This document shows, piece after piece, positions 7,965-33,305 of a stretch of DNA of 33,305 nucleotides. Source of the DNA: Desulfomonilaceae bacterium (lineage in GTDB: Bacteria; Desulfobacterota; Desulfomonilia; Desulfomonilales; Desulfomonilaceae); NCBI GenBank assembly GCA_031082285.1, contig JAVHLK010000036.1:12653-45957 (forward strand). Direction: 5' to 3'. The notes beneath the pieces were generated by a model. The model saw only the letters and a program-made list of their open reading frames with translations. It had not been told where the DNA came from and ran no database searches. Position numbers and translations under genes: made by a program. Positions within the stretch are counted from its first letter, which is position 1. The number at the start of each line of letters is the position of its first letter.

Positions 7965-9773
7965 TCACGAGACCAGGCCGGGGTGGATCCGAAACCGGCG
8001 TATGTAACGATAGAGGGCGTCTCTCGAAATTCCCAGAATCTTGGCGGCGTCTTTCTTGTTCCCGTGGGTTCGCCGCAGGGCTTCGATACACATGGCCTTC
8101 GTGACTTCGTCCGTAACCTGCCGCACGGTCCAGTAAGACGGGAAGGGCAAATCGTACGTCCATCGATCCCCGCCCTGAGGCCGGCCCGAGAGCTTCAGTT
8201 CAAGGGGGCCGCCGTCCCAGAGCATCAGAGACCTCTCCACGGCATTCTTCAGTTCTCTCACGTTTCCCGGCCAGCTGTAGGCGGCCAGGCCTTCCACAAG
8301 TGCTTCGTCGACCTGGGGGATCTGCGTGAGGTTCAGCTTGCCGGCGAGTTCGGCCATGATTTCCTCGACCAGGATCGGAATGTCTTCCGTCCTGTCTTTC
8401 AACGGGGGGATCACGATCTGAAACACATTGAGACGATAGTAGAGGGGTTCCAAGAACCTTCCTGCAGCGGTTTCAGCCTCCAGGTCTCGGTGTGTGGCCG
8501 CCACGAGCCTTGCATCCACCGAAACGCTCTTTACGCCCCCCACCCGAATGAACGACATGGTATCGAGGAACGTGAGAAGCTTTGATTGCAGGACCAGAGG
8601 CAGTTCTCCAATCTCGTTCAGGAGCAACGTACCTCCTTCGGCCAGTTCGAGCATCCCCTTTTTTCGGCCCCTTGCACCGGTGAATGCGCCCGATTCGTGG
8701 CCGAAGAGCTCCGATTCGGCCAGCTCGGGACTCAATGCCGCACAATTGATCGAAAAATAGGGCCCTGAAGATCGGGTGGAATGATGGTGTATCCATTGTG
8801 CCAGGTAATCCTTGCCCACCCCGGTTGGTCCAAGCAACAGCACCGTGCCGTTGGTCGAGGCAATCTTCGCGGCCTGAGCCAGAACTCCGGCCATGGCGGG
8901 TGAACGATATTTCTTTGCCCCGCGGGGAAGCCTGGGGACCGATCTCTTGTAGTGCGTGATGTCCCGCGAAATGCAACAAACTCCCGATATTCTGCCTTCA
9001 GCTCCCCGAATCGGCACCCGAGTGTCAAGGAACGTGTGCTCGTTTCCGTTGATCAATCGCGTGTGCTCCTCTTCTACTACTTCCCCGTCGAGCACTCTGG
9101 CGTCCCATCCATCGATCTGTTCCGCGGCACGGGCACCGTAGAGATCCTCGGCCTTGGAGGCGATCAACTCCTCCGACGAAAGGCCGAACAGTTCCTCCAT
9201 TGCAGGATTGACGTGAGTCAGTCGAAGGTTCTCGTCCTTCAGATAGATCACGTCCGGAGATGCCATGAATACCGCGCGAAAGCGCTCCTCGATTTCCTTT
9301 TCCGCTCTGTGAGCCTCAATCACGGGAGTCAGGTCACGTACCACCGATATCTGAAGGTGGTCCTCACGCTCGGTAAAGGGTTCAGTGGACAATTCCACGG
9401 GTACCACGCTTCCGTCGGCCGCACGCAAGCCGGTCTCAATCACGTCCTTTATGTCGCCGCCCGCCCGCGCGTGTGAGAAAATTTTCGTACCGTCGGTAAG
9501 GAAATCTGAAAACGGCCGTCCAATGACATCTCGGGGGCTTCTGGCCGCCATGGCGACAAATTGATCGTCGACCTCGACGATCGTGCCGTGCGTGGTGACC
9601 ACGATCCCATCCCGGGTGGCCTGCATGACTTTTCTGTACCGGTCCCTGCACTCCTCAAGGGCCTCCCGAGGTGTGCGCCTTTCTCGCCCCGCCTTTTGCA
9701 GGTCTTTTACAAGTCCCCGCAAACGGCCGAGTTCAGAGATCAATTCCTCACGTGTTTTCGCAGTATCATCCAT
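7965..9773 (-). CDS. Sigma-54-dependent activator: PAS-PAS-AAA+-Fis HTH
   Basis: A bacterial enhancer-binding protein of 602 residues that would use ATP hydrolysis to open sigma-54 promoters. A short coiled coil (10-45) and two PAS domains (about 46-155 and 165-275) replace the receiver of NtrC-type proteins. The AAA+ domain (about 287-520) has Walker A GPTGVGKD (315-322) and the sigma-54-contacting GAFTGA loop (362-367). Walker B reads GTLLLNEIGE, with Asn386 where Asp is usual. The first arginine-finger position is FLEPL (440-444) in place of FR-x-DL; the second arginine (Arg447, YYRLN) is kept. A Fis-type HTH ends the protein (about 563-596). Start ATG 9771-9773. The second activator at 30481-32241 is a close paralogue. 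The bound signal and target genes are unknown. Confidence 0.95.
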   Translation of the reverse strand: MDDTAKTREELISELGRLRGLVKDLQKAGRERRTPREALEECRDRYRKVMQATRDGIVVTTHGTIVEVDDQFVAMAARSPRDVIGRPFSDFLTDGTKIFSHARAGGDIKDVIETGLRAADGSVVPVELSTEPFTEREDHLQISVVRDLTPVIEAHRAEKEIEERFRAVFMASPDVIYLKDENLRLTHVNPAMEELFGLSSEELIASKAEDLYGARAAEQIDGWDARVLDGEVVEEEHTRLINGNEHTFLDTRVPIRGAEGRISGVCCISRDITHYKRSVPRLPRGAKKYRSPAMAGVLAQAAKIASTNGTVLLLGPTGVGKDYLAQWIHHHSTRSSGPYFSINCAALSPELAESELFGHESGAFTGARGRKKGMLELAEGGTLLLNEIGELPLVLQSKLLTFLDTMSFIRVGGVKSVSVDARLVAATHRDLEAETAAGRFLEPLYYRLNVFQIVIPPLKDRTEDIPILVEEIMAELAGKLNLTQIPQVDEALVEGLAAYSWPGNVRELKNAVERSLMLWDGGPLELKLSGRPQGGDRWTYDLPFPSYWTVRQVTDEVTKAMCIEALRRTHGNKKDAAKILGISRDALYRYIRRFRIHPGLVS

Positions 9774-11628: not shown

Positions 11629-14424
11629 TCAACAGTGACCGGTCAGGAGCGCGACAGGGAATTCCTTCAGGCTTTCCGCCACAAGCAGACCTCCCCCGGT
11701 GGATACCGGTCGCTTGCAGACGGCGTCCTCGAGTTCGGCGGGCATGCCGCCCGGAACCGGAATACGGGTGTCGCCCCAAACCGTTTCTCCGAGCGGGAAC
11801 CGCCCGTCACGGACAAGAGAGGTAGTGAAGCGAGGGACGATCGTGACGGCCCACCGATCGTGGGAATGTCGAGCAAACGCCATCACATGGTCCCGCAGCA
11901 CTCCGCCGGCTCGAAGCGGAACATATTCGCCTGTCTGGAACAGGTCGGCATGGGCTCTCCTTGCCAAGAGCGCGGCACGGATAAGAAACATCTTGATACG
12001 GCCGTCCCGATACGTTTCCATGAGCTCTTTGATGAGCCCGGACCGGCCTCGTTCGTCTTTGAGCAGTATGTCCTCGATAAAGGTCCGTCTCACGTCATAG
12101 GATACCGGCCTGCGGTTGTCGGGATCCACCAGGCTGAAGTCCCAGAGTTCGCTCCCTTGATAGAAGTCGGGCACCCCGGGAGCGGTGATCTTCACGAGCG
12201 TCTGACTAAGTGAATTGAGCATCCCATGGTGCGCGATTCGCCTCTGGAAGGGAAGGAAATCCTCCAGGAACGGGTTGTGGTCCGCGTCTCCGAGGATCGT
12301 ATCCACAAACGCGACAAAGGCGTTTTCGTATCGCTCGTCCGGCGTCAACCACGCGGTGTGAACCTTCGCTTCTCGAACAGCCTTGACGACGTACTCCTTG
12401 ATCCTTTGTACAAAGGCGCCAAAGTCGTCCTCATGGAAGGGAAAGGCGCCAATGAGGCTCTGATACAGTAGGTACTCGTCGTTCGTGTCCGGAGCGTATT
12501 CGTTGCCGAGTCGCTCCTTTCCCCTCTGATTCAAATCCATCCATCTCTTTACGCGCTCTTCCCACTCCCGTGGAATTTCGCTCAAGACATTTATCCGTGC
12601 CCTGGCGTCTTCTCCCCGCTTCGTGTCGTGGGTGGCCGTCGCGTTCAAGGAGTGCGGCCAAAGCTGTTGCCGGTTAATGCAGAATTCGTCGAAGGCGTCG
12701 AGGGTATATCCGAAGTCGCGGGGTTCGCAGCCCACATCGTTGAGCGACACCAGGCGATTGTATACGTACAGGGTGGTGTCCTCGAATCCCTTTGCCATGA
12801 GTGGCCCGGTGAGCTGTTGAAACCTCATGGCCACTTCGAGCCATTTGCTCTTCTCGTCATCCGAGAGGTAATCCGGATAGTCCAAGAGCAAGAACCGCTC
12901 AATAAACGCGCACTCGTACCTGAGCCCGGGACGTCGCCGCAAGGCTTCGGCCACCGCGGCCTTCACATATTTCCGGTCTGTCGCGGAATAGGAATCAGTG
13001 CCGAAGTACGTCCGGTACACGGGAAATACCGAGAGGATTTCCTTCAATGCGCGGTGCAGCCGATACAATGTGATGTCGCCCCCATGTCTGTCTGAAACGG
13101 CGACACCTTTAATGAGTTGGGCCAGATTGTACACGTCGCCCGACATATCCTCGTCGATGATGATCGTCTTCTTTTCCCTGACCAGATCGTCGTACCTTCC
13201 GCTGAACCCCGTTACCGCCTCGTAGATGCGGTCGAACGCATCTTCATTTTCCGTACGACAGAACAGGCCGTTGACATGGCTGAGAAAATCGTACCCGGTA
13301 GTGCCCTGAACCGGCCATACGATGGGGAGAGCTTCATCCGGATCCAGGATCTTCTCCACGACGATGAACACCCCGGGGATTTTCTCGCGAAGACGCCTTA
13401 GATACGATGTCGGATCTCTCAGGCCGTCCACATGATCCACGCGAAAGCCCGAGACCATCCCTCTCGCGAGTAGCTCCAACAAGAGCCGATGCGTCTCCTG
13501 GAACACCTCCTCGCTTTCGACTCTCACGGAAATGAGCTCGTTGATGGTGAAAAAGCGTCGGTAGTTGATTTCATCGGCTGCAACTTTCCAGAAGGACAGC
13601 CTGAACAACTGCCGGGCCAGCAGTTCCTCGAGCAGCCTGAAGCTTTCGGGGTCCCCCGGCGTGCCGTTGAAGATTCGAATATTCTCGTCAAGGAAGGCTC
13701 TTAGTCTGTCGTCCCGGGTATAGAGCTCCCAAAGCATCCTCTTGACAAACCTGATCTGATGATACCGTTCGTCACGATCTTCTTCCCCCGGAAGTGTCTT
13801 CAAGACATAGAGGATCCCCAGGAGCTTCACGAAATTGGGATCGTCCTCCCCCATCCGCACCTTCAACATTCCCAAGCGATGACCGAGAACGTCGGCATAG
13901 GTTTCGATCTTGAGGGCAAACTGCAAGGTATAATAGTGAATCCTGAAGCCGTGTGCCCCATAGGCCGGCACTATTTCGCCGGCCTCCAAGCATTGGCCGA
14001 AATGTCGTCCCAGAAACGGCGCAAGGAGTCGGCCCGTCACCAGCGGATGCGGATCGTCCCAATAGATGTCGAAAAAGGTTGCGTAACGAGAACTGAGGCC
14101 GTTTTCCAGGATATCCATCAACATGTCGTTGCCGTGGTGAAACGCCATGTGGTTCGGAACGATATCCTGGAGCCATCCCATAGACCTTTCACGAAGTTCT
14201 CGGGAGAGTGCCGGCAGGTCGTCCGGTTCTCCCAATTCGTCGTTGATCCGGTTCATGTCCACGATATCGTAACCATGAGGGCTCCCGTCACGCGCCTTAA
14301 AAATGGGGGAAACGTAGACGTCTGATATGCCCAGATCCGACAGGTAGCCGACGATCTTCCGGAGATCTTGAAAGCCGAATTCAGTGTTCAATTGCACGCG
14401 ATACGTAGCATGCGGAATTCGCAT
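11629..14424 (-). CDS. treY: Malto-oligosyltrehalose synthase
   Basis: GH13 enzyme that isomerises the reducing-end alpha-1,4 bond of a maltooligosaccharide to alpha,alpha-1,1, giving maltooligosyl-trehalose. It has 931 residues, in the upper range for TreY. The N-terminus (MRIPHATYRVQL) and VYVSPIFKARDGSPHGYD (37-54) are family hallmarks. Catalytic positions: nucleophile Asp330 (GFRVDHVDGLRDP), acid/base Glu357 (VVEKIL), and the third Asp in ATATHDTKRGED. Start ATG 14422-14424 has AGGAG nine bases upstream. It is the last gene of the operon treZ - GH57 - treY, 66 bases behind the GH57 gene. The product of TreY is the substrate of TreZ, encoded first in the same operon. Confidence 0.97.
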   Translation of the reverse strand: MRIPHATYRVQLNTEFGFQDLRKIVGYLSDLGISDVYVSPIFKARDGSPHGYDIVDMNRINDELGEPDDLPALSRELRERSMGWLQDIVPNHMAFHHGNDMLMDILENGLSSRYATFFDIYWDDPHPLVTGRLLAPFLGRHFGQCLEAGEIVPAYGAHGFRIHYYTLQFALKIETYADVLGHRLGMLKVRMGEDDPNFVKLLGILYVLKTLPGEEDRDERYHQIRFVKRMLWELYTRDDRLRAFLDENIRIFNGTPGDPESFRLLEELLARQLFRLSFWKVAADEINYRRFFTINELISVRVESEEVFQETHRLLLELLARGMVSGFRVDHVDGLRDPTSYLRRLREKIPGVFIVVEKILDPDEALPIVWPVQGTTGYDFLSHVNGLFCRTENEDAFDRIYEAVTGFSGRYDDLVREKKTIIIDEDMSGDVYNLAQLIKGVAVSDRHGGDITLYRLHRALKEILSVFPVYRTYFGTDSYSATDRKYVKAAVAEALRRRPGLRYECAFIERFLLLDYPDYLSDDEKSKWLEVAMRFQQLTGPLMAKGFEDTTLYVYNRLVSLNDVGCEPRDFGYTLDAFDEFCINRQQLWPHSLNATATHDTKRGEDARARINVLSEIPREWEERVKRWMDLNQRGKERLGNEYAPDTNDEYLLYQSLIGAFPFHEDDFGAFVQRIKEYVVKAVREAKVHTAWLTPDERYENAFVAFVDTILGDADHNPFLEDFLPFQRRIAHHGMLNSLSQTLVKITAPGVPDFYQGSELWDFSLVDPDNRRPVSYDVRRTFIEDILLKDERGRSGLIKELMETYRDGRIKMFLIRAALLARRAHADLFQTGEYVPLRAGGVLRDHVMAFARHSHDRWAVTIVPRFTTSLVRDGRFPLGETVWGDTRIPVPGGMPAELEDAVCKRPVSTGGGLLVAESLKEFPVALLTGHC

Positions 14425-14490
14425 GGCAGTGTGCTCCTGTGGGAATCAATGAGTTCGCGGGCATGAACCGGATTACTTCCGTTCATCCGG

Positions 14491-16917
14491 TCAAAACCGA
14501 AGGCCCAGGTTTTCGGCAAGGATCTTCAGGTACTCCATCGGCTCTTCTTCCGTCGATTCCAAGGATTCTTCCGGCACGGGGGGGGATGATCGGGCAGCTT
14601 CCAGAATCGGGAACAAGAGGTTTTGAACTCTTGCGAGGTTTACCTCAAATGGCACCCCGTGTACGAGCCGAGCAGCCTCCACAAAATTCTTAAGAAACGC
14701 AGTGTCATTAATATTATCAACGAGTTGTAATGCCAGGCGTTCCAGGTTTCGTCTCAACTCAAATTCGAGGGTCGTGTGATCCAGCACCACCCCCGCCCTG
14801 TCCGATTCGTCAAAGAGCAGCCTGACGGCATCCGGATCGACAAACTCACTCTTCAATGCTTCCTTCAGGCGTGAATTGAGAACGATCGTTGCAGACGCGG
14901 AAAGGGATCCCGGCGACGGGGTTCCCGAATCCTTCAGGAAACGCATCAGGGGAGCGTAGTAGTCATAGATCTGACCGTAAGCTCCAATAGCCTCTCTGGA
15001 TGCGGGTTCCAGTATTTGATCCAGGACTCGACGCTGCTGTTCTCGAAACAGAGACGTAAGCGAGTGCATGCTCGGACCGTAGTACTCATCGAGAAGTCGA
15101 AGGGTCGACGGAATGTCGCCACGATAGAATACCTCGAGAAGCTTCTCCCTCTGCCCGGCGAACGTCTGGACGTCTCCATTCCAATCGTTGGCCCCACATA
15201 CGATATTGTGATCTCCCAGGTGCAGCACGCCGTAGGATAACTCAAGCGATTCAGCGGTGATTTCCGAAGCCACGGTAGCTCTGCCCACCGCGAGCTTCGC
15301 CTTACCTGCGGAAGACGTCGTCACATCATGCTGAACGGCTCGATATGCGCCGACGGGCGTGCTCTCGCCGTATTCCTCGAAGAGATTGCTGATGGCGAAA
15401 TGAGCCCCCACTTTGTTCAGATCGAGCATGGTCGGCTTGACCCATTTTTCGTAAATGGCTCTCCCGTCGCCGTGCTCGCGAACATTGCTCTTGGCATGGG
15501 ACAGAAGTTGGAGAAACCGAGGTTCGATCTCTTTTCCAAAAAGGCCGTCGGCCAGCTGAATCACCCGTCCGGCATACTGGATCACCTGGACGGTCTCGAT
15601 TCCCGAGAGGTCGTCAAAGAACCACCCACAGCTGGTGTACATAAGCATTGCGTGCCGCTGCATTTCGAGAAGCTTCAGGGCCCTGGTTTGTTCATCCTGG
15701 GAGAGCGGTCGCACGGCATGTTGCTCGAAAAAACGTTCCGTGTTGGATTCCGAGCGGTCCAGAACCAGGGAGATATAGGCGTCCCTCGCTTGCCAAGGAG
15801 ACTTCAACAGTTTGCCGGCACTCTCTTCGTACACGGGTGCCGTGACATCTCGGAGCCAGTCCAGTGCCTCGCGCAAAGGTGCACGCCATTCCTGGTTCCA
15901 GTGGGGGTATCCGCCGGAACTGCAGCCGCAGTTGCCGCGCCATCGTTCTATGCCGTGGACGCAACTCCAGGAACTGTTCTCGAAGATCTCGATCTCATAG
16001 TCAGGCGGATGGGCTTCCAGGTATTCGCCGTAATTGGTTATGGTCGCAAGGCCGTCCGACTCGATGAGATGGAGCGCGTACGCAAGGGCCATGTCACCGT
16101 CGGTGTGATGGTGCCCGTAGCTCTCTCCGTCCGTGGCGACATGAACGATTTCGGATTCCCCTGAATTTTCGGAGAGTGCCCCCAGAACGGCGTGCGCAAA
16201 GGCCTCGCCGCTGTCGAGAAGCCTCTCGAAGGCTACGGCCTGAGAAATGTCGCCGTGATACACGAAGAGATCGATCTCCTTTCCGGTATCCAGTCGGAGC
16301 TTGTACGGCCGCCTCGGGTCGATTCGTCCACCGGACACGTCGTGCCGATCGTCCGATCCCATGTTTCGTATGCGCTTGGCCTGGTTCGGTGCCAGAATCG
16401 TGAACTTGATCCCCATCTCGGCCATGATGTCGAGTGTTTCCAGGTTGACCGCGGTCTCGGGAAGCCACATCCCCTCCGGCAGGCGCTGGAAGCGATGTCG
16501 AAAGTCCTCGATCCCCCAGCGAATTTGGGTTCGTTTATCACGACTGTTCGCGAGGGGGAGGATCATGTGGTTGTAGGCCTGTGCCAGAGCGGACCCGTGA
16601 CCGGAAAAGTTCTCGCGGCTCAAGCGATCTCCCGCAAGGATCGCCTCGTATACGTCGGGGGCTTCCCGTTCCATCCAGGCGAGCAAAGTCGGGCCGAAGT
16701 TAAAGCTCATTCTTGCATAGTTGTTCACCAGCCGAAAGATGCGTCCCCGATCGTCGAGGATTCTCGAAGAGGCATTGGGAGCGTAGCATTCAGCCGTAAT
16801 ACGGTCGTTCCAGTCGTGATACGGGTATGCCGAATCCTGGACCTCCACGACTTCAAGCCAGGGATTCTCCCGAGGAGGCTGGTAAAAATGGCCGTGTATG
16901 CAGATGTATCGTCTCAT
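14491..16917 (-). CDS. GH57 glycoside hydrolase with DUF3536 region
   Basis: An 808-residue protein of the GH57 alpha-amylase/4-alpha-glucanotransferase family with the long C-terminal part seen in the DUF3536 group. The start MRRYICIHGHFYQPP contains the GH57 N-terminal motif. Other conserved pieces are PEGMWLPETAVNLETL, FVYHGDISQAVAF and VATDGESYGHHHTDGD, the last probably holding the catalytic Asp of the barrel (inference from the family). ATG 16915-16917 overlaps the treZ stop in an ATGA junction, so translation is probably coupled; a further 33 codons upstream are open but lie inside treZ. It sits between treZ and treY, where a debranching or chain-adjusting enzyme (TreX role) would be useful. 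I infer that it trims or rearranges alpha-glucan for TreY; the activity itself is not shown by sequence. Confidence 0.92.
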   Translation of the reverse strand: MRRYICIHGHFYQPPRENPWLEVVEVQDSAYPYHDWNDRITAECYAPNASSRILDDRGRIFRLVNNYARMSFNFGPTLLAWMEREAPDVYEAILAGDRLSRENFSGHGSALAQAYNHMILPLANSRDKRTQIRWGIEDFRHRFQRLPEGMWLPETAVNLETLDIMAEMGIKFTILAPNQAKRIRNMGSDDRHDVSGGRIDPRRPYKLRLDTGKEIDLFVYHGDISQAVAFERLLDSGEAFAHAVLGALSENSGESEIVHVATDGESYGHHHTDGDMALAYALHLIESDGLATITNYGEYLEAHPPDYEIEIFENSSWSCVHGIERWRGNCGCSSGGYPHWNQEWRAPLREALDWLRDVTAPVYEESAGKLLKSPWQARDAYISLVLDRSESNTERFFEQHAVRPLSQDEQTRALKLLEMQRHAMLMYTSCGWFFDDLSGIETVQVIQYAGRVIQLADGLFGKEIEPRFLQLLSHAKSNVREHGDGRAIYEKWVKPTMLDLNKVGAHFAISNLFEEYGESTPVGAYRAVQHDVTTSSAGKAKLAVGRATVASEITAESLELSYGVLHLGDHNIVCGANDWNGDVQTFAGQREKLLEVFYRGDIPSTLRLLDEYYGPSMHSLTSLFREQQRRVLDQILEPASREAIGAYGQIYDYYAPLMRFLKDSGTPSPGSLSASATIVLNSRLKEALKSEFVDPDAVRLLFDESDRAGVVLDHTTLEFELRRNLERLALQLVDNINDTAFLKNFVEAARLVHGVPFEVNLARVQNLLFPILEAARSSPPVPEESLESTEEEPMEYLKILAENLGLRF

Positions 16918-18749
16918 GGCATATGCACCCGTCTGAAGTATACGGCAACGGAGAGTGCCGTCAGAGGCACGACTCCACTCAGTCGCTCCGGGAGAATGGA
17001 CCCGGGTCCGTTCCAAAGGTCGTCCGCAGAGTCAAGAATCTTCTCCCAGACCTGCTCGTCAACCTTCCAATCCAATTGTACCCGACGTGTTTCCGATGAC
17101 AGGTTGAACAGGATGAGGCAGCTTTCACCTGCCGCGGAACGGGTCATCAGAAGCACGTCCTGCATGGGCACATTATGCACCTGGGTTGCCGACTTATCCA
17201 GTACCTTCAAGGGGGCGCACGTCTTTCGCAATCGTATCAGTTCCTTGTAAAAGGCGAGCAACCGGACGTGAGGGTCCTTGAGGCGATCGTCCCACGATAT
17301 CCTCGACCTGATGAAGGTCTCGAGCGCATCAGGATCGGGCGGTTCACTCTCCCATCCGAACTCCTGGAATTCTTCCTTCCTGCCCGAGCGCACCGCGTGC
17401 GTGAGCTCCGGATCTCCGTGGCTGGTGAAGTACAGAAACGGATGTGTTTCGCCGTACTCTTCTCCCATGAAGAGCATGGGAACGTACGGGGAGAGCAGCA
17501 TGAGGCCGGCGGCAACCTTGAGTCCTTCGAACGACGTAAGAGAACTCAAGCGCTCGCCGTTCAGCCGATTCCCGATCTGGTCGTGATTCTGGATCGAGAC
17601 GAGAAAGGCTTGCCCCGGCAGGTCCTTCGCGCGCGCCCCATGGGAACGCTTTCGGAACCTCGAGTACTCTCCTTCGTAGGCAAAGCCGTGTCCAAGGACC
17701 TTGGCAAGATGATCCGGATCTCCGTAATCAATATAGTACCCTTCGCGCTCTCCGGTGAGGCGCGTGTGTACCGCGTGATGAAAATCGTCGTTCCACACGC
17801 AGTCCAATCCCATTCCCCCCAATTCGACGGATCGTACCAGACGAGGGTCATTAAGATTGGATTCCGGGAAGAGATACACGGCACGGCCGTTGCGTTCCCC
17901 GAAGCGATGCACCACCCGGCTCAGTTCTCGCAAGAACGGGTCGGGACGCCGGTCGAATATGGCATGGGTCGCGTCCAATCGGAGTCCGTCCACGTGATGG
18001 TTGCCGATCCAGTGCAACGCGTTTTGAAAGAAGAATCTCCTCACGTGGTCACTGAACGGCCCGTCGAAGTTGACCGCTTCACCCCATGCAGTCTTGTATC
18101 GATCGGTGAAATACGGTCCGAAATCTCGCAGGTAGTTTCCTTCAGGGCCAAGGTGATTGTACACCACGTCGAGGATTACGGACAAACCGCGTTCATGGCA
18201 TGCATTCACGAATCGTTTGAGTCCGTCCGGGCCGCCGTAGGAATTCTGGACGGCAAAGGGGTACACGCCGTCATAGCCCCAATTTCGGTTGCCCGGAAAT
18301 TGGGCCACGGGCATGAGCTCGACCGCGGTGACGCCCAAGACCGTAAGATCGTCCAGTCGAGCGATTGCTCCATCGAATGTCCCTTCCGGCGTGAACGTAC
18401 CCACATGGAGTTCGTACAGGATGAGGTCTGAGAGCGGCACGGGCCGGAATGCCGCGTCCGTCCACGGGAACGATACATGGTCCACACAGGCGGACGGTCC
18501 GTGCACTCCTTCCGGCTGGAAATGAGAGGCCGGGTCCGGACGAGTGAGTTCATCGTTCAGTACGTACCGGTACCTGGTTCCGGGGGGAACGGGGAGGCCG
18601 CGAACGCACCGGTACCCCCCATCGATGGATTGCATTGGAATGAGTCCCGGAACATCGTCGAGGACTTCCAGCTTCACGTCGTCCGCAAAGGGTGCCCATA
18701 CGCAGAAGTCGTACGATCCCTCGCTCGTCATCCAGGCACCTATGTGCAT
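16914..18749 (-). CDS. treZ: Malto-oligosyltrehalose trehalohydrolase
   Basis: GH13 enzyme of 611 residues that releases trehalose from maltooligosyl-trehalose. An N-terminal beta-sandwich (about 1-95, with DFCVWAPFADDVKLEVL) precedes the barrel. LYELHVGTFTPEGTFDGAI and LMPVAQFPGNRNWGYDGV are strong TreZ signatures. Catalytic residues: Asp259 (VDGLRLDATHAI), Glu296 (LFPESNLND), Asp390 (SIQNHDQIGNR). ATG 18747-18749 has AAGGAG six bases upstream, a strong ribosome site. First gene of the operon, with an ATGA overlap into the GH57 gene. I could not find a convincing promoter in the 139 bases upstream, so read-through from the PLD-VTT gene is possible. Confidence 0.97.
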   Translation of the reverse strand: MHIGAWMTSEGSYDFCVWAPFADDVKLEVLDDVPGLIPMQSIDGGYRCVRGLPVPPGTRYRYVLNDELTRPDPASHFQPEGVHGPSACVDHVSFPWTDAAFRPVPLSDLILYELHVGTFTPEGTFDGAIARLDDLTVLGVTAVELMPVAQFPGNRNWGYDGVYPFAVQNSYGGPDGLKRFVNACHERGLSVILDVVYNHLGPEGNYLRDFGPYFTDRYKTAWGEAVNFDGPFSDHVRRFFFQNALHWIGNHHVDGLRLDATHAIFDRRPDPFLRELSRVVHRFGERNGRAVYLFPESNLNDPRLVRSVELGGMGLDCVWNDDFHHAVHTRLTGEREGYYIDYGDPDHLAKVLGHGFAYEGEYSRFRKRSHGARAKDLPGQAFLVSIQNHDQIGNRLNGERLSSLTSFEGLKVAAGLMLLSPYVPMLFMGEEYGETHPFLYFTSHGDPELTHAVRSGRKEEFQEFGWESEPPDPDALETFIRSRISWDDRLKDPHVRLLAFYKELIRLRKTCAPLKVLDKSATQVHNVPMQDVLLMTRSAAGESCLILFNLSSETRRVQLDWKVDEQVWEKILDSADDLWNGPGSILPERLSGVVPLTALSVAVYFRRVHMP

Positions 18750-21658: not shown

Positions 21659-24600
21659 ATGCACTGGAAGGGGATTACCCGCATTGTCCGGCAGGGCCTT
21701 GTTCCCGCCGTCGCTGTTGTTGCCCTGGCAAGCGCCGTGAGGCTATGGCCTCTCCAAGCCCTCGGAACGGGCCTTACCTACATAACATTCTATCCGGCCG
21801 TAACGATTGCCGCTCTTTATGGAGGCCTTTTCACCGGCTTGGCGGCGACTCTCTTGTCCTGCGCGTCGATAGTGTTCGCCGGGCATCTCATCTTCGGTGA
21901 ACCCGCGATCGGAGGTTTCTCCGATTGGCTTGGTGTGGCCGTCTTTATCCTCACTTGCACAATGATCTCGGGGATCGTCGAGGCGATGAGACGTTCGCGA
22001 GCAAAGGCCGCACACGTTCAATTGGACCTCAAGTCCAAGAACGCGGAACTACGGGCCACCCGCGAGAACCTCGAAGATGAGATAAAGCGGCAAACCGCGG
22101 AATTGGTCGACACCAATGTTGCCTTAGAAGCGGAACTCGCTAAACGCAGGCACGCCGAGGAGGAGGGCCGGCGGCATCTGGAACAGCTCCGTACGGTATT
22201 GGAACACCTGACTGAAGGCCTGGTCGTCGCGGACTTGGAGGGGAACCTCTATCACTGGAATCGAGCAGCGATCGAGATGCACGGTTTCGAGCGCCTGAAC
22301 GAATGTCGGCGTAGCCTTCACGAGTTTGCCGACATGTTCGAGCTTTCCACGTCCGATGGGCGGGTCCTGCCTGTCGAGCAATGGCCGCTTGCACGTATTC
22401 TCCGCGGGGAGACATTGCGCAATTGGGAGGTCCGTGTCCGCCGCCTGGATAGAGACTGGAAGCGCGTGTGGTCGTACGGCGGGAGCCTTGCGAGGGACGC
22501 CGCAGGGAATCCCCTTCTTGCGGTCGTCGGCTTAACGGACATCACCGAACGCGAACAGGCTGAAGAACAGCGCAAGGAAAGTGAAGCCCGCTTGAAAAGA
22601 TCCCAAGCGATGGCGCATCTCGGCAGTTGGGAACTCGACCTGGTCAACGACGTCCTTACGTGGTCCGATGAGGTGTACCGGATCTTCGGATTGGAACCCC
22701 AGGAATTCAAAGCGAGCTTCGGCGCATTCTTGGACGTCGTTCATCCCGACGATCGCAAGGCGGTGGAGGAAGCCTATCGGGGATCGTTGCGAGAGGGGAG
22801 CGACTCGTACGAAATAGAGCACCGCATAGTCAGGAAACCACACGGTGAAGTGCGCGTTGTCCACGAGAAATGCGATCACGTTCGGGATCGGTCCGGCCGC
22901 GTTGTTCGGTCACTGGGAATGGTGCACGACATAACCGAGCGTAAGCGCCACGAACACGAGAGGGAACTGACGGTTGAATTCCTTCATCTCGTAAATGAGA
23001 GTCGGGGAATCGAAGACCTGATCCGGTCCACCGCCGGCTTCTTCCAACACCGATCCGGCTGCGAAGCGGTCGGGGTTCGAATCCGGGACGGAAATGATTA
23101 TCCCTATTTTGAGACACGGGGATTCCCTGAGGAGTTCGTTCGCTCCGAAAACCACGTGTGCGCCCAAGATGAGAATGGGTCCGGTTGCCTGGACAATGAG
23201 GGCAATCCGGTCCTGGAGTGCATGTGCGGCAAAGTCATTAGCGGAGGGCTCGATCCGTCCAAACCGTTCTTCACCGCAGCGGGAAGCTTCTGGACCAACT
23301 CCACCTCGGAACTCCTCAGCGTTCCACTGGGCCTGGAAACGGATTTTTCTGCACGGAATGTGTGCAACCGGGCAGGATATGAATCGGTCGCGTTGATCCC
23401 TTTGCGTTCGGGTGACGAACCGTGGGGGCTCATCCAACTCAATGATTCTCGTACGGGATGTTTCACTCGTGAAATTATAGCCTTTTGGGAACGGCTGGCT
23501 CAGCACGCATCCGTTGCATTGGCAAAGTTCACCGCGGAAATGGCGCTGGAGGAAGCTTTGGATAACCTCGAAGCGCGGGTCAAGGAAAGGACCTCTGAGC
23601 TCGAGGCCGCCAAAGAGGCTGCGGCTGTGGAACGACGTCGGCTCTATGACGTGTTGGAGACACTACCGGTATACGTCTGTCTGCTCGATTCGGATTACCG
23701 AATGCCGTTCGCGAACCGGTATTTCCGGGAAAGCTTTGGAGAATCTCAGGGCCGGCGCTGCCATGAATTCCTGTTCAATCGGACGGAGCCCTGCGAGATC
23801 TGCGAGACATATGCGGTCATGAGGACCGGAGCTCCGCACCACTGGTTCTGGACCGGTCCAAACGAGAGAGATTATGACATATACGACTTCCCGTTCACCG
23901 ACGTGGACGGCTCCAACCTCATTCTGGAGATGGGGATTGACATTACCGAGCGCAACCAGGCGGCACGTGCCCTTAACGAGACCCTAGCCGATCTGACCAG
24001 GTCGAACGCCGACCTTGAACATTTTGCGTATGTCGCTTCACATGATCTGCAGGAACCTTTGCGCAACGTCACCGTTGCTTTGCAGATGTTGGAAAAACGC
24101 CATAAAGGCAAACTGGACGGCGATGCGGATCTGCTGATTCATTATGCCGTGGACGGCGCGAAAAGAATGAAGAATCTTGTTGCGGATCTTCTGAAATATT
24201 CCAGAGTTGCCGTGCGAAATCAGCCATTTGAAATGGTTGACGTTCAAGAAGCGGTGAACCGGTCGATCCTCAATCTGAGGAGTCTAATCGAGCAAGAGGG
24301 CGCGATAGTCACCTGTGACAAGATGCCCACGGTTCCCGGTGATTCCACCCAGCTGGTCCAACTGTTTCAGAATCTGGTAGGAAACGCGGTGAAATTTGGA
24401 CGCGCCGAACGGCCGAAAGTTCATGTTTCGGCTCGAAAGAGCGACAACGAATGGATCTTCTCCGTCAAGGATAATGGCATTGGTATCGATGAGCGACATT
24501 TTGAGCGCATTTTCGTCATCTTTCAACAGCTGAACAAGCGTGAATCGTTTGACGGTACAGGTATGGGGCTGGCAATCGTCAAGAAGATCGTCGAGCGCCA

Positions 24601-24699: not shown

Positions 24700-25104
24700 A
24701 TGCACATTCTCCTTGTGGAGGACAATCCTATGGATATCCTTATGACAAGGGAAGCGTTGAAAGACTGGAAGATCGAGCACCGACTCCACGTGGTGGAAGA
24801 TGGTGAAGAGGCCCTTGATTTCCTTTTCAAGAGGGGCCCTCACGGTGAGGCGGCACGCCCCGACCTGATCCTCTTGGACCTGAATCTCCCCAGACGCAGC
24901 GGCTTTGAGGTGTTGTCGGAAATCAAGAGCAGTCCTGAACTCTCCACGATCACCCTGGTCGTGGTCACGACTTCCGATGCGGCCGGGGACAGACGGAAGT
25001 GTCACGAGCTGGGGGCTGCTCTGTACATCACAAAGCCGCTCGACTTCCACGAGTATATTCAGGCGTTAAATTCCGTTGAGACGTTCTGTTCAGGCTTCCA
25101 ATAA
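24700..25104 (+). CDS. Single-domain response regulator (Rcp1-like)
   Basis: A 134-residue receiver with acidic pair Glu7/Asp8 (LVEDNPMD), phospho-acceptor Asp60 (LILLDLNLPRRSG), Thr90/Thr91 and Lys112 (YITKPLDF). The pattern LPRRSGFEVL with a TKP loop is typical of the small regulators found next to phytochrome-type kinases. ATG 24700 is chosen because AGGAG (24689-24693) is six bases upstream. An in-frame ATG at 24679 overlaps the kinase stop in an ATGA junction and is a less likely start. There is no output domain, so it must act by binding another protein or in a relay. Co-transcribed with the kinase at 21659. Confidence 0.93.
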   Translation: MHILLVEDNPMDILMTREALKDWKIEHRLHVVEDGEEALDFLFKRGPHGEAARPDLILLDLNLPRRSGFEVLSEIKSSPELSTITLVVVTTSDAAGDRRKCHELGAALYITKPLDFHEYIQALNSVETFCSGFQ

Positions 25105-25213
25105 GGCTGTCGCGCGCGTCGTCGGACACCGCTTCAGTACGGTTCGACCGCGGCAAGGCCTCGGAATACGAGACCGCCGTCGCACAGCCCGTGAACCGAG
25201 AAAGGACATCCAC

Positions 25214-26782
25214 ATGAGCGGCGAACCCGCACTGACCATCCGAACCGACACGTATGATGCCGCGGTGTTCGATCTCGACGGCGTGATCACCAGGACTGCA
25301 CGCGTGCATGCCAAAGCGTGGAAGCAAATGTTCGATGAGTTCCTTGTACGACAACGGGAAGCAACAGGCAGGGAAATTGGTCTCTTTGACGAGCACGCGG
25401 ACTATGACCGTTATGTTGATGGGAAACCTCGGTACCGCGGGGTCCAGAGCTTTCTTAATTCGCGAAACATACAGTTGCCGTGGGGAAATCCTGGCGATCT
25501 ACCCGGAATGGAAACCGTTTGCGGCCTGGGCAACCGAAAGAATCAATTGTATCAGCGGTTGCTCGAGACGATGGGCGTGGAGACGTACGACCCCGCCGTT
25601 CAGCTGGTGAAGGCCCTGCGAGAAGCAGGAATCAAGACCGCGGTGGTCTCGTCGAGCAAGAATTGCGCGGCGGTCCTCGAAGCGGCCCATCTCTCTGATC
25701 TGTTTGAAACCCGAGTGGACGGCGTTGAGTTGGAGAAACTCGACCTCAGAGGAAAACCGGATCCGGATGTGTTCTTGGAGGCGGCAAGACGTTTGGGGGT
25801 ACGTCCGGATCGGACGGTGGTCTTCGAAGACGCCGTTTCGGGTGTTGTAGCGGGAAGAGACGGCGGCTTCCGATGCGTCGTGGGAGTTGATCGAAAAGAC
25901 CAGGCTCAGGATCTGCTGGAGGCGGGCGCGCATGTAGTGGTCAACGATTTGGGGAAGGTGCACGTGGTACGGTTCGGCCAGGCCGATGAGACGGTGCGCG
26001 CGGGGACGCTCCCGTCGGCCCTCGATCGCGTGGAAGAGATACTCGGACGCGCGCGGGGACGCCGACTCGCCTGCTTCCTGGATTATGACGGAACCTTGAC
26101 GCCCATTGTAGATAATCCCCAAGATGCTGTTCTCGCCGAGGAAACGCGCACGGCCCTGCGGAAGCTTTCCCGAGTGGCCTTCGTCGCAATAGTGAGCGGC
26201 CGGGGGTTGAATGACGTGCGGCGAATGGTCGGGCTCGAGGACGTATACTACGCGGGGAGTCATGGGTTTGAAATATCAGGCCCCGACAATATTGCCGAAG
26301 AACGAGCACGGGAGTACCTGCAGCTGCTCGATGCGGCCGAAACCGAGCTCACGCACGCGGTTCGCCATATTCCCGGAACCGTGGTGGAGCGCAAGAAATA
26401 TTCCGTCGCGATGCATTTCCGAAAAACTCCGAGAGAGAGAATAGGGGAGGTGGAGGAAACGGTAGATCGAGTGATCGCACACCATCCGCAACTCAGGAAA
26501 TCGTCGGGCAAGAAGATATTCGAGGTGCAACCGGGTCTGGACTGGGACAAAGGCAAGGCGGTCCTCTGGTTGATGGAGACATTGGGATTCCACCATCCCA
26601 ACGACGCCTTACCCCTGTACATTGGAGACGACACCACGGATGAGGACGCGTTTGCGGCCATCAGAGACGGGGGCATTACCATCGTCGTTGACTCGGGTCA
26701 GGAGAGTTCGGCCGAGTACCGGCTCAACGATCCTGAAGAAGTGCGCCGATTCCTCGAGTCTCTACAGGAAGGCCTGCCGTGA
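25214..26782 (+). CDS. Fusion of beta-phosphoglucomutase-like HAD and trehalose-6-phosphate phosphatase
   Basis: A 522-residue protein of two HAD domains in tandem. Residues 1-250 resemble beta-phosphoglucomutase: nucleophile and acid/base Asp20/Asp22 (VFDLDGVITRT), SSSKN near 146-150, Lys181 (GKPDPDVF) and Asp206 (FEDAVSG). Residues 283-520 are an OtsB-type phosphatase: Asp290/Asp292 (FLDYDGTLTPI), SGR (328-330), GSHGFE, and GDDTTDEDAF (471-480). It could interconvert beta-glucose-1-phosphate and glucose-6-phosphate and also dephosphorylate trehalose-6-phosphate. ATG 25214 has AAAGGA seven bases upstream. No trehalose-6-phosphate synthase gene is in the window. The gene is followed after eight bases by a GH65 remnant, the usual partner of a beta-phosphoglucomutase. 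Domain families are sure; substrates are inferred. Confidence 0.92.
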   Translation: MSGEPALTIRTDTYDAAVFDLDGVITRTARVHAKAWKQMFDEFLVRQREATGREIGLFDEHADYDRYVDGKPRYRGVQSFLNSRNIQLPWGNPGDLPGMETVCGLGNRKNQLYQRLLETMGVETYDPAVQLVKALREAGIKTAVVSSSKNCAAVLEAAHLSDLFETRVDGVELEKLDLRGKPDPDVFLEAARRLGVRPDRTVVFEDAVSGVVAGRDGGFRCVVGVDRKDQAQDLLEAGAHVVVNDLGKVHVVRFGQADETVRAGTLPSALDRVEEILGRARGRRLACFLDYDGTLTPIVDNPQDAVLAEETRTALRKLSRVAFVAIVSGRGLNDVRRMVGLEDVYYAGSHGFEISGPDNIAEERAREYLQLLDAAETELTHAVRHIPGTVVERKKYSVAMHFRKTPRERIGEVEETVDRVIAHHPQLRKSSGKKIFEVQPGLDWDKGKAVLWLMETLGFHHPNDALPLYIGDDTTDEDAFAAIRDGGITIVVDSGQESSAEYRLNDPEEVRRFLESLQEGLP

Positions 26783-26790
26783 GGGAGAGA

Positions 26791-27009
26791 ATGAACGAGT
26801 GGTCGCTGATATACGAAGGGTTCGACCCGGATGGTGAAGGCATCAGGGAGGCATTGTGCACGCTGGGAAACGGGTACTTTGCCACACGGGGAGCCGGAGA
26901 AGAAACGAGTGCAAAGCCCATACGCGTCGCATTCAAGGACAAGGAGTTCGAGCTGAAGCACGGAGAAACCAGGGAGATCTCAGCCGAGTCGGAAGGAGGT
27001 CCGTGTTGA
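26791..27009 (+). pseudogene. GH65 glycoside phosphorylase/hydrolase remnant, internally deleted
   Basis: A 72-codon frame. The first 35 or so codons match the N-terminus of GH65 enzymes (trehalose/kojibiose phosphorylase type): W-x-L-x-YEGFDP, then REALCTLGNGYFATRGA. After GEETSA the text jumps to KPIRVAFKDKEFELKHGETREI, which resembles the extreme C-terminal strands of the same family rather than the expected continuation. Full GH65 proteins have roughly 750-800 residues, so the whole catalytic barrel is missing. The ribosome site (GAGG, six bases before ATG 26791) is intact, and the frame is open to TGA. Possible causes are a true in-frame deletion or an assembly collapse. It directly follows the HAD fusion, the normal operon partner of GH65. 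A stable functional mini-protein is unlikely. Confidence 0.75.
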
Positions 27010-29960: not shown

Positions 29961-30356
29961 CTATTTCAACCCCAGACTTTTCGAGAATTCCCAGAGCCCG
30001 TGGATGTTGCACAGACTCAAAGCCGTAAGAGTGCCCGGCTTGGTTGTTTTCATGGAAGCGACGACCGAGTGGTTGGAGTACACAGGACCCGTGTCGGGAC
30101 CGTCAACTGATTCGCCGTGTGCAGTGAATTCAAAATTGCCGATCTGATAGGCAAACTTATCCCCTTCGGGTTTGAAAAAGAGCTGAATCCACCGGATGTG
30201 GTGGTCTGTAGTATTGGGATGAGCAATCTCTTTTCCCAATGATATCCGGACATCAAACATTTCATTCGACGGCACGTTGTCCGGACAATCGATAACGGGC
30301 ACATGCTTCTCGCTCTTCCAATCGGCCGTCTGCACATAATCCCCCACTTTTGCCAT
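29961..30356 (-). CDS. Superoxide reductase (neelaredoxin/class II)
   Basis: A non-haem iron enzyme of 131 residues that reduces superoxide to hydrogen peroxide without making oxygen, typical of anaerobes. All five iron ligands are visible: His18 (SEKHVP, with the mobile Glu16 and Lys17), His46 and His52 (HPNTTDHH), Cys116 and His119 (CNIHGLW). There is no N-terminal desulforedoxin domain (no paired CxxC), so it is the one-iron class. ATG 30354-30356 follows AGGAGG by eight bases, a strong ribosome site. First gene of a likely operon with the amidohydrolase. It needs an electron donor such as rubredoxin, which is not in the window. Confidence 0.97.
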   Translation of the reverse strand: MAKVGDYVQTADWKSEKHVPVIDCPDNVPSNEMFDVRISLGKEIAHPNTTDHHIRWIQLFFKPEGDKFAYQIGNFEFTAHGESVDGPDTGPVYSNHSVVASMKTTKPGTLTALSLCNIHGLWEFSKSLGLK

Positions 30357-30480: not shown

Positions 30481-32241
30481 TCAACCGAGTAAGTCCATTT
30501 CTATGTGAAATCGCGTGATGTAACGATAAAGGGCGTCACGGGACGTGCCAAGTATGCGCGCCGCCTCCTTCTTGTTACCCTTTGTCCGACGAAGGGCCTG
30601 CATGCACAACTGCTTGGTAACCTCGTCGGTGACCTCCTTCAGTGTCCAGGTGCTGGGAAACTGCAGGTCTCGGCTCCACGTGTCTGCGGACGGGGAGTCT
30701 GCGCCCAGTTTCAAATCGAGTGGTCCACCGTCCCAGAGCATCAGGGCTCGTTCCAGGACGTTTTTCAGCTCTCTGACGTTTCCCGGCCAATTGTGTGCGG
30801 CCAGTCCCTTGATGAGGCGCGAATCTACGACCGGGATCTTTGACAGATGCATCTTTTCGCCCAGCTCCCCCATAAGCGCGTCCACCAACTGCGGGAGATC
30901 CTCGGGCCGCTCCCGTAAAGCAGGCAGCCAGAGTGAAAAGAAATTGAGCCGGTGAAAGAGGGGCTCCAGAAACCGCTTGGATGCGACTTCCTCTTCCAGA
31001 TTCCGATGAGTGGCGGCCATAAGCCGTGCATCGACCGTCACGCTTTTCACGCCGCCCACGCGCAGAAATGACCGCGTGTCGAGGAACGTGAGGAGTTTAG
31101 ACTGGAGCGGAAGCGGCAACTCGCCGATCTCGTTGAGCAGCAATGTGCCGCCTTCCGCCAGCTCCAGCATCCCACGCTTGCCTCCTCGAGCGCCCGTGAA
31201 TGCACCCGGTTCATGCCCGAACAACTCGGATTCGGCAAGTTCAGGGCTCAACGCGGCACAGTTCAATGCGAAGTACGGACTCCCGGCCCGATCCGAGTGG
31301 TCGTGAATCCAGCGGGCGAGATAGTCCTTTCCCGTACCGCTTGCGCCCAGGAGGAGAACCGTACCGTCTGTTGCCGCGATCCGCTCCGCCTGCTCCATCA
31401 ATCTGCGCATGGCCGCAGATTGGTACTGCGTTCCGTCGTCAGTCGGCCCGGAAGCCGTGGTCCGACGTTCCGTGATGTCGCGTGAAATGCAGCATACGCC
31501 GGTTATCTTGCCTTCCACGTTCCTCAGCGGGACCCGGATATCGAGGAAAGTCATGGGAATACCGTTGATGCTTCGGGTGTGTTCCTGCTCGAGGGACTCT
31601 CCCTTGAGAACGCGGTCGTCCCACTCTTCAATCTGCCGACCGGCCCGCTTGCCGAAGAGTTCCTCGCCGGTGCTCCCGATGATTTCCTCGAGTTTCTTAT
31701 TGAACAAGTCGGCCATGGCGGGATTCACTTCGGTGAAGCGGAGATTCTCGTCTCTTATGTACACCGCGTCGGGGGTTGACTCGAAAAATGCTTTGAACTT
31801 CTGCTCGGAATTGCGCACGGAATTGCATGCCGCCCGCAGCTCCACGAGCAGTTTCCCGCGCTCGATGGAATGCTTGATTGTCCGATACAGCATTTCCTGA
31901 CTCCAGGAGCCTTTAACAAGGTAATCCTGGGCTCCCTTGCGCTCCGCCTCGAGGGCAAGAGAGCGCTCGTCCGAGTCGACCAGTACCAGCACGGGAATCG
32001 ACACAGCCAAATCTCGGAACTTGATGAACGTGTTGAGTCCTGTGCTGTCCGGCAGCGACAGATCCACCACCATCATGTCGAACAGCTCCAATTGAGCCTT
32101 TCGGAGGGCCTCGGCGAGCCCGTGGGATTGTTCCACGTCAAAGGCGATCCCATTTTCCATGAGAGCCAGCCGTTCGCGGAATGCGGCTGTTTCCACCGGA
32201 TCGTCGGCTACCAGGTGAATCCTATAGCGTGACGTATTCAT
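30481..32241 (-). CDS. Sigma-54-dependent activator: receiver-PAS-AAA+-Fis HTH
   Basis: Enhancer-binding protein of 586 residues. The receiver (5-125) has Asp13/Asp14, phospho-acceptor Asp60 (MMVVDLSLPDS) and Lys110, but the switch Thr is Val88 (LVLVDSDE). A PAS domain (about 150-260) is nearly superimposable on the second PAS of the activator at 7965, sharing TFLD-x-RVP and GVCCISRDIT. AAA+ (about 275-505): Walker A GASGTGKD (299-306), GAFTGA (346-351), Walker B LLLNEIGE with Asn370, FLEPL (424-428), second arginine finger Arg431. Fis HTH at about 547-580. ATG 32239-32241 is chosen since the receiver begins right after it and AAGGA lies nine bases upstream; the frame is open 29 more codons. 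It lies behind a near-perfect sigma-54 promoter, which suggests control by itself or by its paralogue. Confidence 0.94.
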   Translation of the reverse strand: MNTSRYRIHLVADDPVETAAFRERLALMENGIAFDVEQSHGLAEALRKAQLELFDMMVVDLSLPDSTGLNTFIKFRDLAVSIPVLVLVDSDERSLALEAERKGAQDYLVKGSWSQEMLYRTIKHSIERGKLLVELRAACNSVRNSEQKFKAFFESTPDAVYIRDENLRFTEVNPAMADLFNKKLEEIIGSTGEELFGKRAGRQIEEWDDRVLKGESLEQEHTRSINGIPMTFLDIRVPLRNVEGKITGVCCISRDITERRTTASGPTDDGTQYQSAAMRRLMEQAERIAATDGTVLLLGASGTGKDYLARWIHDHSDRAGSPYFALNCAALSPELAESELFGHEPGAFTGARGGKRGMLELAEGGTLLLNEIGELPLPLQSKLLTFLDTRSFLRVGGVKSVTVDARLMAATHRNLEEEVASKRFLEPLFHRLNFFSLWLPALRERPEDLPQLVDALMGELGEKMHLSKIPVVDSRLIKGLAAHNWPGNVRELKNVLERALMLWDGGPLDLKLGADSPSADTWSRDLQFPSTWTLKEVTDEVTKQLCMQALRRTKGNKKEAARILGTSRDALYRYITRFHIEMDLLG

Positions 32242-32313: not shown

Positions 32314-32367
32314 CCCGGACCGATCCATATCATCAGCAAGTCATCGTCCCTCAACGATTGGTCCGGG
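32314..32367 (-). other. Large stem-loop in the leader of the second sigma-54 activator
   Basis: Arms CCCGGACC-G-ATC (32314-32325) and GAT-T-GGTCCGGG (32356-32367) pair over 12 positions with one mismatch, around a 30-base loop. It lies 73-126 bases before the activator start codon and inside the transcript expected from the sigma-54 promoter. It could affect translation or transcript stability; no known riboswitch is recognised. Confidence 0.45.
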
Positions 32368-32545: not shown

Positions 32546-32560
32546 GCAATGATCGTGCCA
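32546..32560 (-). promoter_or_regulatory. Sigma-54 (-24/-12) promoter
   Basis: Read on the minus strand, the site is TGGCACGATCATTGC, matching TGGCACG-N4-TTGC at every specified position; only the optional final A/T is a C. Transcription would start near 32534, leaving a leader of about 293 bases before the activator at 32241. Orientation and uninterrupted downstream sequence point to that gene. Confidence 0.75.
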
Positions 32561-32666: not shown

Positions 32667-32686
32667 GTGTCCATATAATGCGACAC
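32667..32686. promoter_or_regulatory. Candidate enhancer dyad for the sigma-54 promoter
   Basis: Symmetric repeat GTGTC (32667-32671) and GACAC (32682-32686) with a ten-base AT-rich centre. Its midpoint is about 142 bases upstream of the expected start at 32534, a normal distance for an enhancer-binding protein site. The five-base arms are short, so the match could be chance. Confidence 0.35.
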
Positions 32687-33123
32687 GTGAGTCGTGGATC
32701 GCTGCTAACTTTCCGTGATGCCAATGCTTTTGATTTGCATAAATCTGACACCCGAATGTTGACTTCACGCACAGGCTCTTTGGCGGGGGCAACCGCCTAC
32801 ACCTGGAAACCGAATGAGCTCAAATCATTGGCGTACCTGGCAGCAAAGGCGAGGGAGGGCGGCATTTAGCAGATCGACTTTCCCGAGTATGGGACATGGG
32901 GGCCGGTTCGCGCGGCTCACGGTCGGACGCGAACGCGAACCGTTCATCGGCCGGCTCGCTCTGCATTCCTGATAGATTCTTCACTCCATGATCACGGAAC
33001 GAAACGCATGCCGGGTACAATGTCCTTCCGCGTGCGCGTCCGCCGTGATAAACTTAATTTGGTCATCCACGCGAAGCCAGGGGCAAACGGTCTCAAAGGA
33101 CCCACCGATTAGAGGCGGCATTG

Positions 33124-33305
33124 ATGCGTACGAGAAAAACGAAAACCAAGGTGAGCAATCCCGCTGAAGTCCTCGCAGAGGCGAAACGGAATCAAGAGAA
33201 GCGTTCAACCATGTATCGGGACAGGGCTCTCAAGTTGTTCCCGCACATCTGCGGCCGCTGCGGGCGAGAGTTCTCGGGCAGGAAACTGAAAGAGTTGACC
33301 GTCCA
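33124..33305 (+). CDS. YajD-type HNH nuclease, 3' end outside window
   Basis: The first 60 codons of a small protein whose sequence matches the N-terminal half of the YajD family of HNH nucleases: YRDRALKLFPHICGRCGREF, with the zinc-type pair CGRC, then KLKELTV at the window edge. The family continues with HH-x-D and the C-x-x-C/HNH motif, which lie beyond base 33305. An N-terminal lysine/arginine-rich tail (MRTRKTKTK) is longer than in E. coli YajD. ATG 33124 has GAGG eight bases upstream. Function in the cell is not established for the family. Nothing upstream shows it belongs to an operon. Confidence 0.85.
   Translation, partial: MRTRKTKTKVSNPAEVLAEAKRNQEKRSTMYRDRALKLFPHICGRCGREFSGRKLKELTV

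Follow-up and report, generated by a model that had tools for sequence, protein, structure and literature searches.

P0001, a gene for a sigma-54-dependent activator, is likely itself transcribed from a working sigma-54 promoter. The transcript would start at ~32534 on the minus strand, and a member of the P0001 clade would bind an enhancer dyad further upstream. Here, the window means the whole stretch of DNA analysed (33,305 nucleotides). The features on which the argument turns are these:

32546..32560, minus strand: sigma-54 promoter core TGGCACG-ATCA-TTGC, from consensus match, genome counts and matrix score
32242..32534, minus strand: predicted 5' leader of ~293 nt, from the predicted transcript start to the ATG
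30481..32241, minus strand: activator P0001, with REC, PAS, AAA+ (GAFTGA) and Fis-type HTH (SRDALYRYI) regions, from domain matches
29961..30356, minus strand: desulfoferrodoxin or superoxide reductase-like gene adjoining P0001 downstream, from a desulfoferrodoxin domain
32668..32685, minus strand: predicted enhancer dyad TGTC-GCATTATATG-GACA, which begins at -125 relative to the -24 element
32733..32750, minus strand: at -190, a TGTC that may be a weak second half-site, with two mismatches to the full dyad
7965..9773, minus strand: paralogous activator P0002 (PAS-PAS-AAA+-HTH), a candidate activator of the promoter, from its identical recognition helix

The promoter core, read along the minus strand from 32560 to 32546, is TGGCACGATCATTGC. 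A preliminary description, made from the same DNA, had claimed a match to TGGCACG-N4-TTGC at all specified positions. This is borne out: 11 of 11 agree and, with the -24 GG at 32559-32558 and the -12 GC at 32547-32546, the GG-N10-GC spacing is correct. The site had also been called near-perfect, which is fair wording; the deviation is a C directly 3' of TTGC, where A or T is usual. There is one exact match to the pattern in the window, namely this site, and shuffled window sequence gave 0.66 matches when up to one mismatch was permitted. By consensus matrix the site scores 17.8, from a maximum of 20.3, and the runner-up in the window scores 13.3. What had been described as the best sigma-54 site of the intergenic stretches read has the top score of the entire window. 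All such scores are approximate, as we chose the matrix frequencies by hand to follow the known consensus. The sigma factor itself is accounted for by a single rpoN match in the genome (E 1.3e-60). On the minus strand of the leader, nothing resembling a sigma-70 promoter scored above threshold.

The earlier description had proposed a genome-wide scan as a check. Across the 5.6 Mb of this genome (314 contigs), a pattern search found 16 exact matches to the promoter, compared with 4 for the reversed pattern. With one mismatch allowed, the counts were 161 and 130, and the excess was nearly gone. Hence, a match carries information only if it is exact or nearly so. The matrix was applied to 433 kb of the genome, taken from stretches around activator genes and so enriched for them. 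Outside long open reading frames in this sample, 14 sites scored at least 17 and the reversed matrix gave none. From the excess of exact matches, and the matrix control, we conclude that the site at 32560-32546 is very likely functional. A similar site at C244:7953, matching at 14 of 15 positions, was rejected as chance; it falls within the coding sequence of an apparent ABC substrate-binding protein.

P0001 is the first minus-strand gene downstream of the promoter, running from an ATG at 32241 to a stop at 30481. It had been said to encode an enhancer-binding protein and its domains agree. The sigma-54 interaction domain (PF00158, E 6.1e-59) has GAFTGA at residues 375-380, and a Fis-type HTH is found at the C-terminus (PF02954, E 2.9e-8). 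The sequence AAGGA is 9 nt before the ATG. There is a second in-frame ATG at 32328, and the stretch from there down to 32241 appears non-coding. If ATG 32241 is the start, the leader from 32534 is ~293 nt long. We found no coding signal, Rfam match or terminator in this leader, and it folds no better than shuffled sequence (z +1.24). Downstream of P0001 are the superoxide reductase-like gene and an amidohydrolase gene. The former has no sigma-54 site of its own that we could find, and may possibly be co-transcribed with P0001. No orthologue of P0001 above 58% identity was found outside its own genome, and scans of genome contigs returned only 42-48% relatives and fragments. Relatives with the REC-PAS layout are mostly in kinase/regulator operons that lack an upstream site.

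Counting positions from the promoter, which was the only way in which the dyad became visible, reveals a perfect TGTC-N10-GACA, TGTCGCATTATATGGACA, at 32685-32668. It starts at exactly -125 and, in both sequence and spacing, resembles an upstream enhancer for a sigma-54 promoter. When the local sequence is shuffled, the chance of a perfect dyad at that distance is ~1e-4; the distance range had been fixed from the other loci. In the P0001 clade (recognition helix type SRDxLYR), several members carry a dyad TGTC-N9/10-GACA between their stop codon and the promoter. It begins 123-126 nt before the -24 element, and over the family homologues the range is -122 to -127. Of the 19 clade homologues that have a site downstream, 7 had a dyad with up to one mismatch at -128 to -121, against a shuffle mean of 0.10. 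For other activators the figure was 1 of 26, and that one has a related helix, SRDSIYRYI. A second dyad near -190 occurs in 4 of 12 clade members. The TGTC half-site at -190 in the window is not significant alone. Exact 5-bp dyads common to unaligned flanks at identical spacing were not found.

Dyad and promoter can also be searched for together, as a dyad, 102-113 nt and TGGC-N8-TGC. This combined pattern had 19 matches in 18 family genomes, compared with 2 for the reversed control. In this genome there were 4 matches, the window promoter among them, and none for the reversed pattern. Several matches follow an activator gene and some diverge from one; four or five, which fall within other genes, could be chance occurrences. 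A looser pattern, requiring only the dyad and GG-N10-GC, was uninformative (25 in the genome and 22 in the control). Dyad-promoter units are found family-wide (L174-L191; C271 and C268 in this genome), often 185-230 nt past an activator gene. On C268, near-identical units at 23638-23776 and 26682-26820 (L186 and L188) are ~3 kb apart. Both precede Band-7 (HflK-like) genes, and an activator gene was not found nearby. A tandem duplication would account for the repetition, as would an artefact of assembly.

The position of the promoter, ahead of P0001, is unusual for this genome. Of the 46 activator genes examined here, about one third are followed by a strong sigma-54 site ~200-400 nt past the stop codon, with another gene coming next. 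Elsewhere in the family, the P0001 homologues follow suit, and their sites cluster ~185-230 nt after the stop. P0001 departs from this habit: its promoter is in front, and there is no strong site within 450 nt of its 3' end. A strong site upstream of the gene's own start was found for only 2 of the 46, P0001 and the C247 activator. The latter gene (L099:4655, minus strand) has the site TGGCACAATTATTGCT, located between it and an aminotransferase-like gene. We also considered, and rejected, a remnant of an activator gene upstream of the window promoter, which would restore the usual arrangement of promoter after activator. From the site to the contig end there is no open reading frame of at least 100 amino acids, and the short ones have no likeness to an activator C-terminus.

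We propose the following mechanism. RNA polymerase containing sigma-54 would be positioned at 32560-32546. A clade member, which may be P0001 or one of its sisters (P0002, for instance), would bind TGTC-N10-GACA at 32685-32668. The bound activator would then loop the DNA and remodel the polymerase, so that the promoter opens. Transcription from ~32534, through the leader, would allow P0001 to be made. The outcome would be positive autoregulation of P0001 or a cascade of sister activators. We infer transcription from the promoter, the identity of the binding paralogue and co-transcription of the superoxide reductase-like gene. Set against this explanation are the atypical position of the promoter, the long leader, the C after TTGC and the N10 spacer.

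Which activator might bind? P0001 and P0002 are 63% identical over residues 167-613 and both have the recognition helix SRDALYRYI. Since the enhancer suits the clade that includes them, activation is probably by the protein itself or by a sister. The sequence does not choose between the two. The preliminary description had argued that the activator itself needs sigma-54; as a prediction this has good support, both from the promoter statistics and from a dyad at the distance typical of the clade. It had gone on to suggest autoregulation, or a cascade in which the paralogue at 7965 switches P0001 on. The shared helix and the 63% identity are consistent with this. However, about ten clade paralogues with related helices are encoded in the genome, so that nothing marks out the one at 7965 among them. 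The promoter may be real and yet be served, in a cascade, by another activator of the clade, such as the C17 or C43 response regulators, rather than by P0001 itself. This is a sub-case of our best explanation and a serious contender, at somewhat less than even chances. Several clade paralogues, those two included, have no site after their own gene. Moreover, the window dyad has an N10 spacer, whereas the two homologues with a nearly identical helix (SRDALYRYI/M, L052 and L131) have N9. Spacers of N10 go with SRDSLYRHL-type helices, as in the C17 protein, but this correspondence between helix and spacer comes from few cases. Remote targets do exist, as the C268 units indicate. Conversely, dyad-promoter units in the family often adjoin the activator gene presumed to bind them.

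Two other readings dispense with transcription of P0001 from a sigma-54 promoter. The promoter could instead drive a small RNA, or a short peptide, from the 293-nt stretch. The length of the leader fits this, and sigma-54-dependent non-coding RNAs have been reported beside activator genes in Desulfovibrio vulgaris (DVU0653 and DVU0679; PMC4641369). Nevertheless, the lack of any terminator, Rfam match, coding signal or unusual fold in the stretch makes this improbable. Least credible of all is that the site is a chance resemblance with no promoter function. About one quarter of exact matches genome-wide could indeed arise by chance (4 of 16), but the control outside open reading frames, and the independent dyad at -125, both argue against it.

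Our preferred reading, that a clade member activates P0001 from this promoter, describes an ordinary circuit. Activator genes driven by sigma-54 are already well known elsewhere, and P0001 is a new example. In flrBC, activated by FlrA, and glnALG, activated by NtrC, activator genes are transcribed from sigma-54 promoters. These operons are not homologous to the present locus, and the signals and targets differ. FlrA and flrBC are mentioned in a study of D. vulgaris Hildenborough (PMC4641369), a bacterium that has many activators and in which promoters and activator genes are co-located. There, sigma-54-dependent operons include three of the activator genes, and autoregulation and cascades have been proposed (PMC4641369). 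Several enhancer motifs comprise TGT and ACA half-sites 9, 11 or 12 bp apart (PMC4641369); the dyads described here, as TGT-N11/12-ACA, have the same form. Unlike D. vulgaris, which is of another bacterial family, the present case involves a REC and PAS activator and a dyad at a nearly fixed ~125 nt from the -24 element. In the Nla28/Nla6 cascade of Myxococcus xanthus, activators bind sigma-54 promoters of activator genes; Nla28 binds the nla28 promoter, and long leaders were noted (PMC9765219). Nla28 recognises tandem 8-bp repeats at mostly intragenic promoters, whereas here the promoter is intergenic and the repeat inverted.

For the ~50 sigma-54 activators of this genome, hardly any targets are known. 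An enhancer code at a fixed distance offers a direct route to pair activators with promoters across the family, and the window would provide a concrete link from activator to activator. More speculatively, a clade of sister activators in the Desulfomonile family might share one enhancer code, TGTC-N9/10-GACA at a fixed ~125 nt from the promoter, and form a cross-talking network. P0001 would then be a self-amplifying or relayed switch with a link to superoxide defence. We hold this broader picture to be doubtful. If true, the P0001 node is one where the promoter has moved ahead of the gene instead of behind.

Elsewhere in the window, a plus-strand gene start at 33121-33305 is truncated where the contig ends. 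The initial residues recall the HNH nuclease YajD, and the 60 residues available have no Pfam match. A minus-strand cluster of alpha-amylase-type and GH57-type genes occupies 11629-18749. This cluster and a gene at 25076-26782 with a trehalose phosphatase domain suggest a storage-sugar or trehalose region.
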